This document shows, piece by piece, positions 3,598-11,591 of a DNA stretch of 11,591 bases. The position numbers and the translations under genes are program-made. This stretch comes from Actinomycetota bacterium (GTDB lineage Bacteria > Actinomycetota > Thermoleophilia > UBA2241). The notes under the pieces are model-generated. The model was not told the origin of the DNA and did not search any database. It saw nothing but the letters and a program-made list of their open reading frames with translations. The DNA is taken from NCBI GenBank assembly GCA_003132645.1, contig PKYM01000133.1:1-11591 (forward strand), in the 5' to 3' direction. Position 1 is the stretch's first letter. Each line of letters begins with the position of its first letter.

Positions 3598-4215
3598 TTG
3601 CGTAAGCAGTACGCTGTCGCCGGTGTCGTCGTGGCGGTCCTGGTCGCCTCATTGATCGTCGTCGCCGGCTCGAGGTCGTCCAAGGGCTCGGACCCCGCCC
3701 AGAAGGCAAGCGCCAAGTCTGCGACCACCGGCTACGCGTCGGCAACCTCCGGCGTCCGCGCTCCCACCGACTACAGTGCGATGGTCAAGCTCCTCGCGGC
3801 ACGTTACGCCCGAAACCCCTCCGACTCCAAGATCGCCCTGGCCCTCGCCAACGCCTACCTCATGACCGATCGACCCAAGAAAGCGGGACGCCTGTACACG
3901 AAAGTCCTCAAGAGCGAACCCGACAACGAGACCGCCAAGGTGCAGCTCGCGATGGCGCTCCATGCCGACGGCAACGACGACCAGGCCTTCGAGTTGCTGA
4001 ACGCCGTCCTGCGGACCGACCCGCGCAGCCAGCTCGCCCACTACGACCTGGCTGGCCTCTACTTCTCCGAGCAGAAGTCCACCTTAGCAAGGGATGAGTG
4101 GAAGAGAGCGGCGGCCCTCGACCCCGCCTCGGGCGTCGGCAAGATGGCCCAGGATTTCGTCAACCTGATGGATGAGACCACCGGCCGGCCGCACCCGAAC
4201 GGCACCGGCGGGTAA
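3598..4215 (+). CDS. Membrane-anchored tetratricopeptide-repeat protein
   Basis: This is a 205-residue protein that starts at TTG with a strong ribosome-binding site, AAAGGAG (3583-3589), 8 nt upstream. Residues 1-5 are basic and residues 6-24 form one hydrophobic helix without a lipobox cysteine. The protein is therefore probably anchored in the membrane with its bulk outside the cytoplasm. A Ser/Ala-rich linker (about 25-55) follows, then about three TPR units from roughly residue 60 to 185 (YARNPSDSKIALALANAYL, LKSEPDNETAKVQLAMAL, LRTDPRSQLAHYDLAGLYF). TPRs bind partner proteins. No enzymatic domain is present and the partner is unknown. The gene diverges from the Rrf2 gene and converges on the phosphoribosyltransferase gene, only 16 bp away. 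Its upstream region has phased repeats suggesting regulation. A CcmH/NrfG-like role in cytochrome assembly is possible but unsupported. Confidence 0.82.
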   Translation: MRKQYAVAGVVVAVLVASLIVVAGSRSSKGSDPAQKASAKSATTGYASATSGVRAPTDYSAMVKLLAARYARNPSDSKIALALANAYLMTDRPKKAGRLYTKVLKSEPDNETAKVQLAMALHADGNDDQAFELLNAVLRTDPRSQLAHYDLAGLYFSEQKSTLARDEWKRAAALDPASGVGKMAQDFVNLMDETTGRPHPNGTGG

Positions 4216-4231
4216 CTTAAAACGCGGCGCT

Positions 4232-5332
4232 CTACCCCACCAGCTCGAGACGCGGGTTGGGCCGCTCGCAGCGCCCCCGCTTGGCGCACGGCCGGCCGTC
4301 GACACGCACGACGTCGGCCGTAAAGTCGACCTTGCCGCGCAGCAGGCTCGAGCCAACGCCGTAGGCGTCGGCCGGCACGCCGGTGCACTCGAACTCGCGG
4401 ATGCGATCGGCGTCGAAGCCGCCGCTCACCACGATGCGCACGTGCGCGAAGCCTTCGGCGTCCAGGGCGCGCCGCACGTTGCGCACGAGCTCGGGGGTGA
4501 CGCCGGTCGGGCGGAACTGCCCCATGTCCTCCCATAACGAGCGGTCGACCATGGTCTCTGAGGTGTCGAGGCGCACGCCCCACAGGCGCGCGCCGAGAGC
4601 GCGGGCGCAGGCGAGCGAGGTCGCCACGCAGTCGTTATCGAAGTCAACCAGGGCGACCACGTTGACGTCGGGATGCAGGACGTCGGCGAACGCCTCCGAG
4701 GCGACGACCGTGTCGCCGCCGTAGGCCGCGATCAGGCCGTGCGGCACGGTGCCGCCGCCCTTGCCGCCCCACCACGACGCCTGCTCGTCGGTCGACACGC
4801 CGATGGCGCCGGCGATGTGCGCCGCCCAGCCATCGCCGGCCTGGACCCGATAGTGGTCGAAGCGCGCCGGAAAGAAGAGGATCGGTTTGTCGCCGGCCGC
4901 CTCGACGACCCGGCGCACGTTCGTCGAGATCAGCGTGCGCCGCGTCAGGACCCCGAGGTACACCGTCTCCAGGTGGGCGAACAGCGAGTAGTCGCCCTCG
5001 ATCGTCATGACGGTCTCCCACGGCGCGATGTCGTCGCCGTCGTAGAGCGCCCTGACCTCGAGCTCGTCCCAGCCGTTGACCCAGGTGCGCCTGCCGTCGC
5101 GCTCGACGTGGCGGCCCGAGCACTCACGCAGGGCGGCGATCGCTTCGTCCATGCCGCCCAGCACGGCCGCCTCGTATTTCTGGAAGACCTGCATCAGCAC
5201 CCGCGGATGCTCGCCTCTGGTCTCGAGGACGCGCTTGGACAGGTTGAAGTAGGCGTCGGAGTAGTAGCCCTCCCGCATGCGCTCCACGGGCAGCGCGAAG
5301 ACGGCGGGGTCGAGGCGGCGGCGCTCACTCAT
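4232..5332 (-). CDS. pncB: Nicotinate phosphoribosyltransferase
   Basis: This is a 366-residue type II phosphoribosyltransferase of the nicotinate/quinolinate family. It would make nicotinate mononucleotide from nicotinate and PRPP, with ATP hydrolysis, in the NAD salvage pathway. It has the N-terminal segment YYSDAYFNLSKRVLE, EGDYSLFAHLETVYLGVL, the active-site motif GTVPHGLI (His198), ALVDFDNDC, LWGVRLDTSE, VVSGGFDADRI and GVGSSL, then a basic Cys-containing tail, PCAKRGRCERPNPRLELV. This order and its compact length fit a shorter actinobacterial-type branch better than E. coli PncB. No Shine-Dalgarno precedes ATG 5332. A TG-extended -10 box ends 7 bp upstream, implying a leaderless transcript. 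It shares strand with the CobB-like gene 68 bp upstream. Substrate choice between nicotinate and a related pyridine is inferred from family. Confidence 0.85.
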   Translation of the reverse strand: MSERRRLDPAVFALPVERMREGYYSDAYFNLSKRVLETRGEHPRVLMQVFQKYEAAVLGGMDEAIAALRECSGRHVERDGRRTWVNGWDELEVRALYDGDDIAPWETVMTIEGDYSLFAHLETVYLGVLTRRTLISTNVRRVVEAAGDKPILFFPARFDHYRVQAGDGWAAHIAGAIGVSTDEQASWWGGKGGGTVPHGLIAAYGGDTVVASEAFADVLHPDVNVVALVDFDNDCVATSLACARALGARLWGVRLDTSETMVDRSLWEDMGQFRPTGVTPELVRNVRRALDAEGFAHVRIVVSGGFDADRIREFECTGVPADAYGVGSSLLRGKVDFTADVVRVDGRPCAKRGRCERPNPRLELVG

Positions 5333-5400: not shown

Positions 5401-6777
5401 TCAGGAGCCGCGCGCCGCGCGCATCGCGGCGATGAAGCGCCCGGCCATGCCGGGCGAGGCCGCGAAGCTCGCGAACAGGGTGGTCGCCAGGCAGCGCCCG
5501 ACGACGAATCCCTCGGTGCGACTGGTGCCGTCGGGCATGGCGATCTGGTAGGCGGACACGTCCTGCTCGAGCACCAGGAACTCGAGGTCGAACAGCTCGT
5601 GCATGACGACCTGCCCGGAGTCGTAGGGATTGGCCCGGGTGGCTTCGGCGGGCACGTAGCGCGGCCGGTCGTACCACTCGAGCAGCTCCGCCTCGGCCGG
5701 CACGAGGCCGAGCAGGTCGTGACTGCGGCCACGGCTGTCCGCCAGGCGCTGGAGCATGAGCAGTGCGCCGCCACCGAGAGCGAGGATGGGCAGGCCCGCG
5801 GCGGCGGCGGCGCGCAGCTCCTGGAGCAGCAAGGCGTTGTCGCAGAAGGTGTCGATGGCCTGCTCGTCGAGCGTGCCGCAGAAAAGCAGGCCATCGCAGG
5901 GTTCGGGCAGCTCGCGGTCGCGGGCAATGTTCAGCGGCACAAGGTTGACACCCATCGCCTGCAGGACATCGACGTTCTCGAGCATGACCGGCTGCAGCGG
6001 CGACCCCCAGGCGACCGCCACCACGAGATCGGTCGCCGAAGTCTCGGCCAGCAACAGACGGCGCGGCGCGGCCGGCAGAAAGCCGCGCCGGGCCGATACC
6101 GCGGCGATCTCGTCGAGCTGAAGGTAGGTGCTGGCTTCGCGGCTGAGCTGCGCCAGGTCGGCTTCGGGGGCCCGCTTGCCCAGCGTGCGCATGGATCGGC
6201 TCGTGCCGGCGTATTGGCGCAGGAACTGCTCGGTGAGCTGCGGCGGGATGTGCCCCAGCAGGGGCAGACCGACATCGCGCCGCAGGGCTTCCTGGAGCTC
6301 CGCGCCGGCGCCCGAGTCGTCGCCGCCGACCAGCACCACGCCGCCGATCTCGAGCTTGCTCGCCAGGGCCCGCGTGCCGTAGACGGCGGCCGCGGCGCTG
6401 GCCCCTCTGCCGCGAGCATCGAGCACCAGCACGACCGGCGCGTCGACGCGGCGCGCCAGATCGACGGCCCGCGAACCGTTGACGCCCTCCCAGCTATCGA
6501 GCAGCGGCCGCACCGCGATGACCAGCGCGAGATCCATGTGCTCGCTCCACTGATCGAACAGCTCGTCAGCCACCGGAGCGGAGTACAGGGCCGGATCGAG
6601 CGCCCGCGGCGCCCGCGCGGCGACGTCGTAGGTGAGACGCCAGAGGGGCAGGTCGAAGCCCAGCAGGATGGCGCGCGTGGTGCGCTGCTCGCCGAAGCCG
6701 GCCAGCAGCGCAGCGGCCACGAGATCGAGCGCGGGGCCCGGTTCGACTCCGGCCAGGATGAGGCGCGGGATGGACAC
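5401..6777 (-). CDS. CobB/CbiA-like cobyrinate a,c-diamide synthase homologue, probably non-catalytic
   Basis: This is a 458-residue protein with the full two-domain plan of CobB/CbiA: an N-terminal P-loop amidoligase-like domain (about 1-230) and a C-terminal class I glutamine-amidotransferase-like domain (about 245-458). Matching landmarks include IPRLILAG at the start, DLARRVDAPVVLVLDARG, LPLLGHIPP, RDRELPE and the C-terminal EGFVVGRCLATTLFASFAASP. Every catalytic signature is altered. The Walker A position reads AGVEPGPALDL with no Gly-Lys-Thr. The aspartates of the DYxDxG-like segment are absent. The nucleophile loop ECGGLMY reads ALGGGAL, with Gly335 where Cys belongs. The C-terminal HLH histidines are Phe and Ser. 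A structural, scaffold or sensor role is likelier than amidation. GTG 6777 is chosen because GAGGAAA (6785-6791) lies 7 nt upstream and the family fold begins there. A GTG at 6837 is less likely. Confidence 0.75.
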   Translation of the reverse strand: MSIPRLILAGVEPGPALDLVAAALLAGFGEQRTTRAILLGFDLPLWRLTYDVAARAPRALDPALYSAPVADELFDQWSEHMDLALVIAVRPLLDSWEGVNGSRAVDLARRVDAPVVLVLDARGRGASAAAAVYGTRALASKLEIGGVVLVGGDDSGAGAELQEALRRDVGLPLLGHIPPQLTEQFLRQYAGTSRSMRTLGKRAPEADLAQLSREASTYLQLDEIAAVSARRGFLPAAPRRLLLAETSATDLVVAVAWGSPLQPVMLENVDVLQAMGVNLVPLNIARDRELPEPCDGLLFCGTLDEQAIDTFCDNALLLQELRAAAAAGLPILALGGGALLMLQRLADSRGRSHDLLGLVPAEAELLEWYDRPRYVPAEATRANPYDSGQVVMHELFDLEFLVLEQDVSAYQIAMPDGTSRTEGFVVGRCLATTLFASFAASPGMAGRFIAAMRAARGS

Positions 6778-6845
6778 TGCTTCGTTTCCTCGATTCTCCC
6801 CCGCCACGCCGGACGCCGCCCGGCCTAACGCGCACACACGTTGGG

Positions 6846-6851
6846 ATTCTA
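6846..6851 (-). promoter_or_regulatory. Candidate -10 box for the CobB-like gene
   Basis: On the minus strand TAGAAT matches the -10 consensus at five of six positions and lies 69 bp before GTG 6777. No good -35 hexamer is seen at 16-18 bp, so the call is weak. It shares the short intergenic region with the divergent histidine kinase gene. Confidence 0.3.
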
Positions 6852-6922
6852 GTGCTTCCGCGCCGTGAGGCGCTTTCCTTCCGCCCGCGGCGCGCGGCCG
6901 ATCTCTAATCCATCGGCCCCGG

Positions 6923-8818
6923 ATGTCGACATTAGACTACGCGACTCGAAAACGAAGAACCGGCGGGAGGCACACCACGGGCAGACAGCTCAGAGAAGTC
7001 ATGACGGCGCGCATCATCTTCGGTGTGGCGCTGTTCATCGCCGGGATCGCCTTTCACCTGCTCAGCGAGAGCTTCATGTCGCTGCCACTGCTGGTGGTCG
7101 TGGTGGTGTTCGTCTGCGCCAACGTGCCGTTTCTGTACCTCAGCCACCGGGGTCGCGAGAGCCAGGTGAGCGTCGCCATGGTGATCGTCGACACGGCGCT
7201 GATCACGGTTGCCGTCGTCTTCACCGGCGGCGTGCTGAGCTCGATGGCGATCTTCTACATCTGGCCGATCGTCTCGGCCAGCCTGCTGCTGCCGCCCTGG
7301 GCCTCGTACATCACCGCCGCCGCGTCGAGCAGCCTCTACATCGTCGTCTGGGTGCTGCAGACCGGGGCGGTGGCGCCGTTCATGAACGACTCGACGATCA
7401 AGCCCCCGGTCATGCCCGCCAACTGGTCCGCCCAGACGGTCGGCATCCGGGTGACCGCGTTCCTGCTGATCGCGCTGCTCACCGGCTTCATCGCCCAGGC
7501 TTTGACCAAGAGCAACGCGCAGCTTCGTGTCGCGAAACTGCGCGCCGAAGGCCAGCTCGACCGCATGAAGGCCGTCAACGAACAGCTGCGGGCGATCGAA
7601 GAGTCGAGTCACGTGTTCATGGCCCACACCGACGTCGAAGGTCTGATGCCCGACTCGCTCGCCAAGCTCTGCGGTCTCATGCGGATCGCCAGCGGCTTCG
7701 TGCTGGTCCGCAACGACAGCACGATCGAAGACCGGCTCGTCGCCTGCCAGGGGCCCGTCACCGTCGAGCTCATCGAGCGGCTGAAGGAGGTCGGGCTCAT
7801 CCGGATCCACCCCGTCGGCCCGCCCCACGTGGCGACGGTCGACGACGGCACGCAGTCCGCCCACGTCCTGAAGCTCATCGAAAAGGACGGCTTTCGCGAC
7901 ATCGTCCTGGTGCCGCTGACGGCCAAGGACCGACACCTCGGTCTGCTGTGTTTCCTGAGTCGCCCGGGCGAGCCCGTACGCGACACCAAGCTCACGGCGC
8001 TCGCCTCGCTGTCGAGCCAGCTCGCCGTCGCGCTGCGCAACATCCAGTACAACGAGGAGCTCGCCCAGAAGAACGAGGAGCTCACCCACCTGGATCAGCT
8101 CAAGAGCGACTTCATGGCCACGATGAGCCACGAGCTGCGCACACCGCTGACCTCGGTGATCGGCTACAGCGACATGCTCCTCTCGGGGGTGACCGGCGAG
8201 TTGAACGAGCGCCAGACCAACTTCGTGAGCAGCATCCTGAAGAACGGTGAGGCACTGCTGAACCTGATCAACGACGTGCTCGACCTGACCAAGATCGAAG
8301 CCGGTCGACTGGAGCTCAACCTCGAGGCCGTCGACCTGCGCTCGGCGCTGCTTGGCGTGCTGCCCGTCGTCAAACCGCGGGCGGCCGACAAGCGCATCAA
8401 GATCTCGACCTACCTGCCCACCGACGTGGCGCCCGTCATCGCCGATCCCGCCAAGTTCAACCAGGTGTTGCTCAACCTCCTGACCAACGCAATCAAGTAC
8501 ACTCACGAGAACGGCAACGTGAGCGTCGAAGCGCGTAGCCAGGACGGCTTCATCGAGATCTGGGTGACAGACACCGGCATCGGCATCGGCCAGGAAGATA
8601 TCGACCGCATCTTCCAGCGTTTCACGCAGGTCGACTCGTCGGCCAGCCGCACGCAGGGCGGCACAGGTCTCGGCTTGGCCATCACGAAGGAGTTGGTCGA
8701 GCTGCACGGAGGCCAGATCCGGGTACAAAGCAAGGTCGGCAAGGGTTCCAGCTTCATCTTTACCATGCCGATATCACACGAGCCGGCCGACCACTTGGCT
8801 GCCGGCAAGATCAGTTAG
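6923..8818 (+). CDS. Membrane sensor histidine kinase with GAF domain
   Basis: This is a 631-residue kinase. About six transmembrane helices span residues 28-195, with only short loops outside, so the signal is probably sensed in or at the membrane. A coiled-coil linker (about 200-230) leads to a GAF domain (about 230-375). A second short coiled coil follows, then HisKA with the H-box FMATMSHELRTPLTS (phosphoacceptor His403) and HATPase_c with the N-box NLLTNAIKYT (Asn522), the G1 box DTGIGIG (Asp550), the F-box FQRF and the G2 box GGTGLGLAITK. All catalytic motifs are intact. It should autophosphorylate and pass phosphate to the receiver encoded 12 bp downstream. ATG 6923 has no Shine-Dalgarno, though TCTAAT (6904-6909) could be a -10 box for a very short leader. 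ATG 7001, just before the first helix, is an alternative start. The signal is unknown. Confidence 0.93.
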   Translation: MSTLDYATRKRRTGGRHTTGRQLREVMTARIIFGVALFIAGIAFHLLSESFMSLPLLVVVVVFVCANVPFLYLSHRGRESQVSVAMVIVDTALITVAVVFTGGVLSSMAIFYIWPIVSASLLLPPWASYITAAASSSLYIVVWVLQTGAVAPFMNDSTIKPPVMPANWSAQTVGIRVTAFLLIALLTGFIAQALTKSNAQLRVAKLRAEGQLDRMKAVNEQLRAIEESSHVFMAHTDVEGLMPDSLAKLCGLMRIASGFVLVRNDSTIEDRLVACQGPVTVELIERLKEVGLIRIHPVGPPHVATVDDGTQSAHVLKLIEKDGFRDIVLVPLTAKDRHLGLLCFLSRPGEPVRDTKLTALASLSSQLAVALRNIQYNEELAQKNEELTHLDQLKSDFMATMSHELRTPLTSVIGYSDMLLSGVTGELNERQTNFVSSILKNGEALLNLINDVLDLTKIEAGRLELNLEAVDLRSALLGVLPVVKPRAADKRIKISTYLPTDVAPVIADPAKFNQVLLNLLTNAIKYTHENGNVSVEARSQDGFIEIWVTDTGIGIGQEDIDRIFQRFTQVDSSASRTQGGTGLGLAITKELVELHGGQIRVQSKVGKGSSFIFTMPISHEPADHLAAGKIS

Positions 8819-8830
8819 GACGGGAGATCC

Positions 8831-9193
8831 ATGGCGAAGTCGATCGTCGTCGCTGATGACGACCCCGATATCCTGAGCATCGTCGCGATGTCTCTCGAGA
8901 CTCAGGGCTACGATGTCTACAAGGCGGCCAACGGGCGCGAGGCCGTCGACCTCGTCCGCGACCACCACCCCGATCTCATCATCCTCGACATGATGATGCC
9001 GGTGATGAGCGGCTACGAAGCGATCGCCGAGCTCAAAGCCGACGACTCGACGAGGGGCATACCCATCATCGGCCTCTCAGCCAAGGCGATGGCCACCGAC
9101 ATGGAACGGGCCACCGACGTAGGCATCGACGGCTATATCACCAAGCCCTTCCGCATCGCCCAGGTGCTCTCCGTCATCGAGGGCTACCTCTGA
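8831..9193 (+). CDS. Single-domain response regulator (CheY-like receiver)
   Basis: This is a 120-residue stand-alone receiver domain with no output domain. The acidic pocket is Asp9-Asp10-Asp11. The phosphoacceptor is Asp53 in IILDMMMPVMSG. The switch residue is Ser83 (GLSAKA), and Lys105 sits in the cis-peptide motif TKPF. All phosphotransfer residues are intact. ATG 8831 follows a GGGAG ribosome-binding site and lies 12 bp after the kinase stop, so the two are one operon and very likely cognate. Without an output domain it must act by binding a partner or by passing phosphate on in a relay. The downstream cyclase gene is a candidate partner. Confidence 0.93.
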   Translation: MAKSIVVADDDPDILSIVAMSLETQGYDVYKAANGREAVDLVRDHHPDLIILDMMMPVMSGYEAIAELKADDSTRGIPIIGLSAKAMATDMERATDVGIDGYITKPFRIAQVLSVIEGYL

Positions 9194-9378: not shown

Positions 9379-10746
9379 GTGAGCATCGAGGTCAAGACCA
9401 CCGGCATGATCGTCGTGATCTTCCTCGTGCTGGTCGCGATCTTCTCGCGCCTGCTCGACCGCGCTCAGATCCTTCAGCTGGGCGTGGCCCTGACGGGGGC
9501 TTTCGCGCTCGTCGTGGCGGTGCTCGACATCTGGGTCTACCGGCCGGTCAACTCTCTGATCCGCCGCTCGCGGCGGCGGCTGGGCAGCCGTTACGAACAC
9601 GACGACCCGCGCCACCGCGATGAGATAGTCGAGCTCGACTTCCTGATCAACACCATCATCCGCACCTTCACCGAGGTGCGGACCCACGAGGTGCGCACGG
9701 AGCGTGCCGAAAGCGACCTCATCCGCCTGCAGGCGTTCAACCGCCAGCTCGTCGAGGTCGGCGACATCGGCCAGGAGATCAACGCCGCCCTGCCCTACCG
9801 CGAGACGGTCGAGCGGATCCTGGCGCGCGCCAAGACCTTCCTGCGGGCCGACTTCGTGGCGCTCATCTCGCTGGAGCCCAACACGCGAGCCTTCGACGTC
9901 GAGGGGGCGCTCGGCGTGCAGGCTCCCTCGATCGACGCCGACTGCTGCCTGTACACGACCGACTGCCCGGTGCGCTCGGCGATCGACGACCACAAGGTCG
10001 TGCGTTCGGCCAACCACACCTGCACCCTGTTTCCCCAGACCATGAAGAGCCAGCTCATCGTGCCCTTCGAGGTCGACCCGCTGGGCGAGATGGCGCTGCT
10101 GGCCACTTCGACCACGAGCGAGCACTTCGACGAGATCGCCACCAACGTGCTCTCGACGCTGCAGGGCCACGTGCACGGCGCCCTGTCGAACGCCCGCAAG
10201 TACGACAGCATCCGCCGTCAGGTGGTCACCGACCACCTGACCCGCCTCTACAACCGCCGCTTCTTCATGAACCGCGCCGACGAGGAGCTCTCGCGCAGCC
10301 TGCGCAACCAGCAGCCGCTCTCACTCGTGATCCTGGACATCGACCACTTCAAGCACTTCAACGACGCGTACGGGCACGCCACCGGCGACCGGGTCCTGCA
10401 GGTCGTGGCGTCGGTCATGCAGCAGCACGTGCGCAAGTCGGACATCTGTTCGCGCCACGGTGGCGAGGAGTTCGGCATGCTGCTGCCCAACACCCCCGGC
10501 GACAACGCCAGCTTCATGGCCAACCGCCTGCGGCGCACGCTGGCCGAGACCCGCTACACCGGCCTCGGGCTGCCGAGTGACGTGAACATCACGATCAGCA
10601 TGGGCGTGGCCACCTGCCCGCGCGACGCGACCACCGTCGCCGAGCTCTTCGAGCTCGCCGACAAGGCCCTCTACCAGGCCAAGGCGGGCGGCCGCGACCG
10701 CGTGATCCAGTACGGCCTCGAGGTGCAGCCGGCCTTCTACGACTGA
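9379..10746 (+). CDS. Membrane-anchored GAF-GGDEF diguanylate cyclase
   Basis: This is a 455-residue protein (465 if ACG 9349 is the start). Two transmembrane helices (about 8-24 and 30-52) are followed by a basic stretch and a helical HAMP-like or coiled-coil linker (about 60-125). A GAF domain (about 130-275) and a GGDEF domain (about 285-450) follow. The active site reads GGEEF at residues 361-365. The inhibitory I-site RxxD is present as RKSD (352-355), five residues before it. The DHLTRLYNRRFF start and LDIDHFKHFNDAYGHATGD segment are intact. It should therefore synthesize c-di-GMP from two GTP and be product-inhibited. The GAF domain carries Cys189, Cys190, Cys196, His213 and Cys215, an unusual cluster. 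There is no EAL domain. It lies 185 bp after the receiver gene and may be separately expressed. Confidence 0.92.
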   Translation: MSIEVKTTGMIVVIFLVLVAIFSRLLDRAQILQLGVALTGAFALVVAVLDIWVYRPVNSLIRRSRRRLGSRYEHDDPRHRDEIVELDFLINTIIRTFTEVRTHEVRTERAESDLIRLQAFNRQLVEVGDIGQEINAALPYRETVERILARAKTFLRADFVALISLEPNTRAFDVEGALGVQAPSIDADCCLYTTDCPVRSAIDDHKVVRSANHTCTLFPQTMKSQLIVPFEVDPLGEMALLATSTTSEHFDEIATNVLSTLQGHVHGALSNARKYDSIRRQVVTDHLTRLYNRRFFMNRADEELSRSLRNQQPLSLVILDIDHFKHFNDAYGHATGDRVLQVVASVMQQHVRKSDICSRHGGEEFGMLLPNTPGDNASFMANRLRRTLAETRYTGLGLPSDVNITISMGVATCPRDATTVAELFELADKALYQAKAGGRDRVIQYGLEVQPAFYD

Positions 10747-10800: not shown

Positions 10801-11591
10801 TCAGTCGTCTGAGTCGAGTCCCATTCCGCGACGGATCAGCGCCGGCGTCGTAGCGCCCCACTCGAGCAGCTCGTCGTGGAAGGCCTTCAGTGACGGTGAG
10901 CGCCGCCGGGCGTAGTCGGAGGCGAGCGCCATAATCTCGCGCTTGCCGATCAGGTAGGCCATCGGATAGCCCGGGACGCCGACATACCAGCGCACTTCGA
11001 GTTCGGCCTTGGAGCGCTCGAGGTGAGCCTCGCGCGACAGGTACTCGACGGCCTCCTCGAAGCTCATGAGGCCGAGGTGCAGCTCCATGTCGATGACCAC
11101 GCGGCAGGCCCTCCAGAGCTGGTCGTTCAACCGCATGAGACGTACGCCGGGGCCGGTGAGAAAGCCCTGCGCCTCCATCATCTCCTCGCAGTAGAAGGCC
11201 CAGCCTTCGATCAGCAGCGTACCGCCATCGGGGATGAAGGCCACCCGGCGCGCCAGGGTCGAAGCGCGGTTGGCGCGGCCGAACTGCGTGTGGTGGCCGG
11301 GGAAGGCTTCGTGCACGCCGACGGTCGGCATCGAGGCGAAAGGGTGTCCGGCAAGGGCGCGGGCGAGCTGCTCGTCGGGCAGATCGGCACTGGGAACCGT
11401 CACCCAGTAGAAACCGCGCTGCAGACGGTCGTAGGGGCCGGCGCCTTCGTAGGCCGCGAACGGCAGGGAGCCGCACAGGGCGGGCGGTGTGGCCTCGACC
11501 ACGAGCTGCTCTCCGGGCGCCAGCGTGACGAGGTCGTGGGCCACGACGTAGTCGCGCGCCGCGGCAAGCGCCTCGCGGTAGCTCGTCAGCA
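10801..11591 (-). CDS. DUF885 family metallopeptidase-like protein, C-terminal part
   Basis: The frame is open to the right edge of the window, so only the last 262 or so residues are seen and the true start lies outside. The fragment holds GVHEAFPGHHTQ (motif encoded at 11290-11313), an HExxPGHH zinc-binding signature. Further on come IEGWAFYCEEMM, a likely third-ligand glutamate region, and the C-terminal WYVGVPGYPMAYLIGK typical of DUF885. Family members are usually 550-600 residues and are predicted metal-dependent peptidases of uncertain substrate. The internal GTG at 11544 is not taken as the start because homology-like sequence (SYREALAAARDYVVAHD) continues upstream without a stop. It converges on the cyclase gene with 54 bp between them. 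Confidence 0.85.
   Translation of the reverse strand, partial: LTSYREALAAARDYVVAHDLVTLAPGEQLVVEATPPALCGSLPFAAYEGAGPYDRLQRGFYWVTVPSADLPDEQLARALAGHPFASMPTVGVHEAFPGHHTQFGRANRASTLARRVAFIPDGGTLLIEGWAFYCEEMMEAQGFLTGPGVRLMRLNDQLWRACRVVIDMELHLGLMSFEEAVEYLSREAHLERSKAELEVRWYVGVPGYPMAYLIGKREIMALASDYARRRSPSLKAFHDELLEWGATTPALIRRGMGLDSDD

Follow-up and report, generated by a model that had tools for sequence, protein, structure and literature searches.

A conserved CobB/CbiA clade lacking the ATP-binding lysine and the glutaminase cysteine, recurrently encoded head-to-head with a membrane histidine kinase in uncultured Actinomycetota

KipI of Bacillus subtilis, a histidine kinase inhibitor that is derived from an enzyme and belongs to the 5-oxoprolinase-like family, acts on the kinase KinA. 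PDX1.2 of plants is described in PMC6829848 as a non-catalytic paralog that regulates vitamin B6 biosynthesis. The CobB/CbiA enzymes, cobyrinic (hydrogenobyrinic) acid a,c-diamide synthases, require ATP and glutamine according to PMC7242693. A homolog of these synthases is encoded in the window analyzed here, a stretch of 11,591 nucleotides (contig PKYM01000133.1, assembly GCA_003132645.1). A preliminary description, made from the letters of the window, had read its product as a CobB/CbiA-fold pseudoenzyme with both active sites lost and the frame intact, and had suggested several new roles for it. The reading as a pseudoenzyme stands, the suggested role as a subunit of a true CobB does not, and that of a ligand sensor is weakened. 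We refer below to proteins of this kind as dead; they come from two families of one uncultured Actinomycetota class, f1, to which the window belongs, and f4.

The coordinates of the features are collected in Table 1. The frame of 458 amino acids is open, and its limits and domain assignment had been given correctly in the preliminary description. The nearest named families are CobB/CbiA and CfbB (NCBIfam PRK01077, TIGR00379 and F430_CfbB); the protein scored 128.8 bits against the NCBIfam CobB model (cut-off 254, E 2.4e-37, residues 51–432) and fell below the cut-off of every CobB-type NCBIfam model that it matched. Among Pfam families, GATase_3 matched above its cut-off (35.5 bits against 27) and AAA_26 below. 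When a profile of 37 homologs was compared with a profile of 17 intact CobB-like proteins by HHalign, the dead family aligned with a probability of 100% (E 7.2e-43) over 439 columns. The protein thus has the two-domain order of the CobB/CbiA enzymes and is homologous to them over its full length, which bears out the proposed fold. Searches of solved structures with the dead proteins returned only weak matches to the PdxT glutaminase subunit and no CobB structure, and two of three f4 members scanned against Pfam matched no family, the third remaining under the cut-off.

Table 1. Features of the window, with positions in the window and strand. Facing motifs are those of intact CobB-like proteins.
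Feature	Position	Strand	Remarks
Nicotinate phosphoribosyltransferase-like gene	4232..5332	-	downstream of dead gene; f1 context
Dead CobB-like protein	5401..6777	-	458 aa, GTG start, open frame
Residues 431-437, ATTLFAS	5467..5487	-	opposite ASY.H.H; both His lost; f4 keeps the second
Residues 393-397, HELFD	5587..5601	-	opposite GHEFH, in alignment with intact enzymes
Residues 333-338, ALGGGA	5764..5781	-	opposite AECGGL; Gly 335 where intact proteins have the nucleophile Cys
Residues 86-95, VIAVRPLLDS	6493..6522	-	about where intact proteins have EGVMGLFDG; no Glu, Asp 94 retained
Residues 40-46, GFDLPLW	6640..6660	-	opposite GPDYIDP; first Asp retained, no Tyr or second Asp
Degenerate Walker A, residues 9-19, AGVEPGPALDL	6721..6753	-	GKTT opposite ALDL (16-19), in alignment with intact proteins
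Intergenic region between divergent genes	6778..6922	.	145 bases; start-to-start spacing over 21 loci 42-267 bases, from start codons chosen by script, the 267 (L045) probably an overestimate and the dead-gene start there uncertain
Ribosome-binding site GAGGAAA	6785..6791	-	ends 7 bases before GTG
Sensor histidine kinase	6923..8818	+	PilS-like membrane domain, GAF, HisKA, HATPase_c; divergent partner
Single-domain response regulator	8831..9193	+	Asp 53, no output domain
GGDEF (diguanylate cyclase) protein	9379..10746	+	near kinase/receiver in 11/13 f1 loci; unmatched in 18 f4; context

We used the homologs of the protein to examine how widely its catalytic residues are missing. At least 285 homologs were found at E ≤ 1e-3 among at most 8,000 candidates; of 120 that were listed, the 118 of at least 430 amino acids were examined and two shorter ones dropped, one of the 118 being the protein cluster of the window itself. 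The Gly-Lys-Thr of Walker A, reported as lost in the window protein, is lost throughout: the same Lys is absent from 118/118 homologs, and the sequence GK[ST] occurs nowhere in any of them. Among the proteins placed in a tree (see below), it is found in 0/30 dead and 46/46 intact rows. A glycine likewise occupies the position of the amidotransferase Cys in 118/118 homologs, where LGGG of the window protein aligns opposite the ECGG of intact proteins; in the tree rows, this position holds Gly in 29 and Ala in one of the 30 dead proteins, and Cys in all 46 intact ones. Shifted copies of these residues do not account for the losses. Six of the 118 homologs have a Cys within residues 328–342 (at 334 in five, at 338 in one and in none at 335), and CAGG, again with the Cys at 334, is found in the f1 genome G003; an off-by-one Cys is therefore a feature of few members, and the window protein has none. 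The ECAG that a regular expression picked up in one f4 row is at a different place in that protein.

At the C-terminal ASY.H.H motif, neither His is present in f1, the window protein included, in agreement with the loss proposed for it; f4 lacks the first and keeps the second (18/18), so that not every loss in f1 and f4 was a joint one. The proposed loss of acidic residues holds in part. The second Asp of GPDYIDP is gone, together with the Tyr, and residue 45 is Leu in 118/118 homologs, but the first Asp (D42) is kept in 114/118 and D94 in 110/118. The GPDYIDP, EGVMG and GHEFH segments are for the most part replaced, and differently in f1 and f4, with D42 and D94 staying in most f1 members; IAVRP stands opposite the EGVMG of intact proteins. 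Since the 118 homologs are without the same Lys and Cys, the losses are a property of the family and not of one sequence.

Whole-genome searches of one sample found the dead gene in 13/15 f1 genomes and a counterpart of about 30% identity in 8/9 f4 genomes. A class-wide sample of 299 genomes, from which only matching ones were picked, supplied nine further f4 carriers of the dead gene; the 197 unlisted, non-matching genomes may include more of f4. Half of the 18 f4 genomes were thus chosen by their match, and frequencies for f4 rest on the sample of nine. In G037, the one listed f4 genome without the dead gene, a contig ends next to the expected place. The CobB-like proteins read from other families of the class were intact. 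All of these genomes are metagenome-assembled (MAGs) and of varied completeness, and the class and the phylum were sampled. In a named genome collection, the best 80 loci of 323 relatives comprised 22 dead loci and 58 (59 proteins) with both the Walker Lys and the Cys, with a gap in score from 527 to 239 bits. The dead carriers here are MAGs titled Thermoleophilia, Gaiellales, Actinomycetes or Actinomycetota, including UBA2241 and RBG_16_64_13; the 22 loci apparently come mostly from the same genomes as the f1 and f4 set and were not counted as independent. Among 396 genomes sampled from the phylum, with few candidates scored in each, there was no match in the range from 541 to 220 bits.

A tree of 76 proteins, obtained by a quick search without bootstrap, contains one branch (SH-aLRT 100) that splits 30 dead proteins (12 from f1 and 18 from f4) from 46 intact ones. 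The tree and the motif tally omit L038, a dead locus cut by a contig end, and L049 and L072, which are of the intact type but have a missing or misread N-terminus. The f1 stem measures 1.99 and the f4 stem 1.69 changes per column, both long, so a single origin amounts to a distant join. That join is supported by the gene arrangement common to both families, and we infer that the catalytic losses happened once, before f1 and f4 split. Two further observations came from these searches. Genome G086 carries two divergent dead CobB copies (L073 and L074), one of them on a 6-kb contig, and may be a mixed assembly. Genomes of another family, f6 (L052, L054, L056 and L058), have beside a normal CobB a second intact CobB-like paralog with HRSSGKTT and FKKGPDFIDPMW, which we presume might be a sirohaem amidase of the DsrN type.

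The dead protein is under ordinary purifying selection. Values of dN/dS were 0.10–0.26 in eight pairs of dead proteins and 0.13–0.30 in six further, more distant f4 pairs, compared with 0.09–0.21 for the kinase (four pairs) and 0.16 and 0.22 for intact CobB (two pairs). The frame is intact in the 12 f1 loci that are free of contig-end cuts. In f1 and f4 there is accordingly a conserved CobB/CbiA clade without the ATP-binding Lys, the glutaminase Cys and most residues of the substrate motifs, and this is almost certainly a pseudoenzyme maintained by selection.

The dead gene faces a membrane histidine kinase, a pairing that is new relative to the preliminary description. The two genes are divergent in 21/21 loci that have the kinase (13/13 in f1). 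A receiver is present in 20 of these 21 loci, and in f1 it follows the kinase in 12/13; it is missing next to the kinase in G002. Among the 18 f4 loci, eight have both kinase and receiver. The kinase histidine (H403) is invariant in the 13 kinases aligned out of 21, and the receiver aspartate (D53) in the 15 receivers aligned out of 20. With a profile of 13 kinases at E ≤ 1e-90, the single threshold on which absence rests, an ortholog of the kinase was found in 22/49 genomes: 14/15 of f1, 8/18 of f4 and 0/16 of the other families of the class. It adjoins the dead gene in 21 of these 22 genomes, the last (G013) having it only in part, where a contig of 3,588 bases ends; apart from such a contig end, no such kinase was found away from the dead gene in the 49 genomes. 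The linkage has a limit in f4, where nine of the 17 genomes with the dead gene gave no such kinase. In the tree, eight of the nine lie in one clade and the ninth elsewhere, which corresponds to at least two losses of the kinase if the ancestor had it.

Comparison of the 13 f1 loci with the 18 f4 loci showed that the frames of at least 90 amino acids common to both are the dead gene, the kinase, the receiver and frames overlapping these; weak matches between genes that we read as thioredoxin-like occur at other positions. Because the surroundings of the two families otherwise share almost nothing, it is the dead gene and the kinase, in most cases with the receiver, that form a conserved, recurrent head-to-head unit. 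A promoter scan of positions 6700–7020 of the window found no sigma-70-like site, and the same interval holds two short terminator-like stems. The six f4 genomes with a live CobB (G017, G027, G052, G077, G081 and G086) all carry the kinase, and the f4 genomes with the kinase and no CobB are G042 (98% complete) and G096 (64%); this co-occurrence may be phylogenetic, and the pattern is not seen in f1.

The wider neighborhood is specific to each family. The genes downstream of the dead gene in most f1 loci encode membrane proteins or resemble nicotinate phosphoribosyltransferase, and five loci (L029, L031, L032, L036 and L040) have there an isochorismatase-family (nicotinamidase-like) gene. Unlike these five relatives, the window has no match to an isochorismatase-family gene in the gap at 4215–4232, between a TPR gene and the nicotinate phosphoribosyltransferase-like gene. 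The order in f4 is gyrB-gyrA-(PilB)-zinc peptidase-(receiver-kinase)-dead gene-chorismate mutase-DUF151. We rejected functional links to nicotinate salvage (f1) and to chorismate mutase (f4) as general explanations, since neither was seen next to the dead gene outside its own family. The mutase and DUF151 genes also occur as a pair without an adjoining dead gene in three f1 and three f2 genomes, and the f4 chorismate mutase therefore probably belongs to a pair that is older. The PilB-like ATPase near several f4 loci is uninformative, PilB-like proteins being present in 34/35 genomes searched.

At 10801–11544 (-) of the window, a DUF885 frame spans profile positions 308–530 of 532; a near relative (L029, 12755–14389) has a DUF885 gene of 544 amino acids, and the window copy looks truncated or frame-broken. 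Several f1 loci have downstream one or two copies of an apparent membrane protein of about 545 amino acids (L031, 9457–11091, and paralogs), of which a member that was scanned had no Pfam match; on the contig of the window, a copy (L025, 12966–14358) matches in two pieces.

Several explanations for such a protein have to be weighed. A decaying pseudogene or a sequencing artefact would fit the loss of catalytic residues if this were taken alone, but the 12 intact f1 frames, the losses common to 118 homologs and the dN/dS of 0.10–0.30 over all 14 pairs refute it, as the preliminary description had anticipated, and we attach practically no weight to it. The preliminary description had also suggested that the protein might regulate, as one of its subunits, a true CobB encoded at another place in the genome. 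A CobB scoring over the cut-off was found in 8/33 f1 and f4 genomes (six of 18 in f4 and two of 15 in f1), and all eight also have the dead gene, which favors this role; however, 25/33 show no such CobB, with the reservation that these are MAGs of varied completeness, and no cob gene is present among the ten neighbors scanned in the window. The genome of the window (about 88% complete) is one of the 25 and also yielded no CobQ; its three other GATase_3 matches are, by our own reading and not by family search, GatD (beside a MurT-like gene), PdxT and PurQ. We rejected the subunit role on this evidence, and a regulatory or structural subunit of CobB is extremely improbable. A sensor of a corrinoid, another tetrapyrrole or a nucleotide, which would bind its ligand in the old pockets and report to the kinase, would agree with a fold that by sequence is kept at full length and with the presence of D42 and D94 in most f1 members; given these two residues, a ligand might still be bound. 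Walker A is erased, though, most residues of the three substrate segments are replaced in ways that differ between the families, and the dead gene occurs with or without cobalamin genes and does not track them (CobQ, like CobB, is in a minority of the genomes, 10/33); these results do not point to a B12-related role, although the co-occurrence of a live CobB with the kinase in f4 speaks the other way, and a sensor of this kind is improbable. Even less can be said for an enzyme with a new active site on the CobB fold. Some polar residues are conserved among the 30 dead rows (E364 and R351 in all, R35 in 29, R122 and D347 in 28), intact proteins seldom have E364 or R35, and f1 has further invariant residues of its own (R124, E394 and D397). 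Only nine positions combine conservation in the two dead groups with rarity in intact proteins, however, and most of these are Gly, Pro or hydrophobic; such an activity, judged from residue conservation, would be very improbable.

The reading that we consider best, at roughly an even chance, is that the dead protein would be a non-enzymatic, CobB-fold effector of the two-component pair. The CobB fold would no longer catalyze a reaction but serve as a module that binds proteins. The receiver would be phosphorylated by the kinase and, having no output domain, would act by binding a protein, for which the dead CobB is the obvious candidate; the dead CobB might thus be the output or target of the kinase-receiver pair. 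It would sit downstream of the kinase and not upstream, with the kinase as the regulator, because the dead gene is kept in nine f4 genomes without the kinase and the kinase is not found alone except at a contig end. Contact with the kinase or receiver is predicted here from gene order, and divergent neighbors can share a promoter without any contact, which counts against a partnership. The dead protein may instead be a stand-alone, non-catalytic housekeeping protein, a scaffold or a binder of some ligand, with which the kinase and receiver merely share an intergenic promoter region. Its commonness in both families (13/15 and 8/9 genomes of one sample) would agree with this, as would its retention in the nine kinase-less f4 genomes, with a dN/dS of 0.13–0.19 in the kinase-less clade (five pairs; dS saturated). 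Such an independence is harder to reconcile with genes that stay together, the receiver included in 20/21 loci, while the other surroundings of f1 and f4 differ, or with the lack of a kinase apart from the dead gene in 49 genomes other than at a contig end, and we regard it as the less likely account, although one of some weight. That the dead protein is in some way a functional partner of the kinase and receiver appears fairly probable from the arrangement of the genes; that it is specifically their effector is put forward with somewhat under even confidence. In the nine kinase-less genomes, either the partnership is dispensable or another kinase serves as a replacement. Tentatively, a three-part module of membrane kinase, stand-alone receiver and pseudoenzyme might have arisen once, in a common ancestor of f1 and f4, with the pseudoenzyme later outliving the kinase in one lineage.

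These data suggest that an old enzyme was recycled into a part of a signaling system. In this one protein both the amidotransferase site and the P-loop site were taken apart while the scaffold stayed whole, which provides a clear conversion of enzyme to non-enzyme with intact relatives for comparison. If the link to the kinase is true, a receiver without an output gains a testable target. There is also a consequence for annotation: many of the dead homologs among the matches listed are named 'cobyrinic acid a,c-diamide synthase' by JGI, and predictions of the B12 pathway that rest on this name would be wrong for these lineages. In the literature searched we recognized neither a description of a dead CobB/CbiA, which does not prove its absence in print, nor a combination of the CobB fold with a kinase partner.

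The likeness to described systems is partial in each case. With the CobB/CbiA a,c-diamide synthases, the dead protein has in common the order of the two domains and homology over the full length, but it is without the Walker A Lys, the nucleophile Cys and the C-terminal His pair, and its substrate motifs are mostly altered. With PDX1.2, as that protein is described, it shares being a catalytically dead homolog of an enzyme of a vitamin pathway. PDX1.2 regulates vitamin B6 biosynthesis in plants, however, whereas 25 of the 33 genomes searched here show no live CobB. The fold of PDX1.2 also differs from that of CobB. KipI provides the other likeness, a metabolic-enzyme fold that acts on a two-component system; the difference is that for the dead CobB a contact with the kinase would follow from gene order alone. 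By analogy, dead vitamin enzymes that became regulators and kinase inhibitors derived from enzymes show, as precedents, that the role proposed here would be ordinary in kind.
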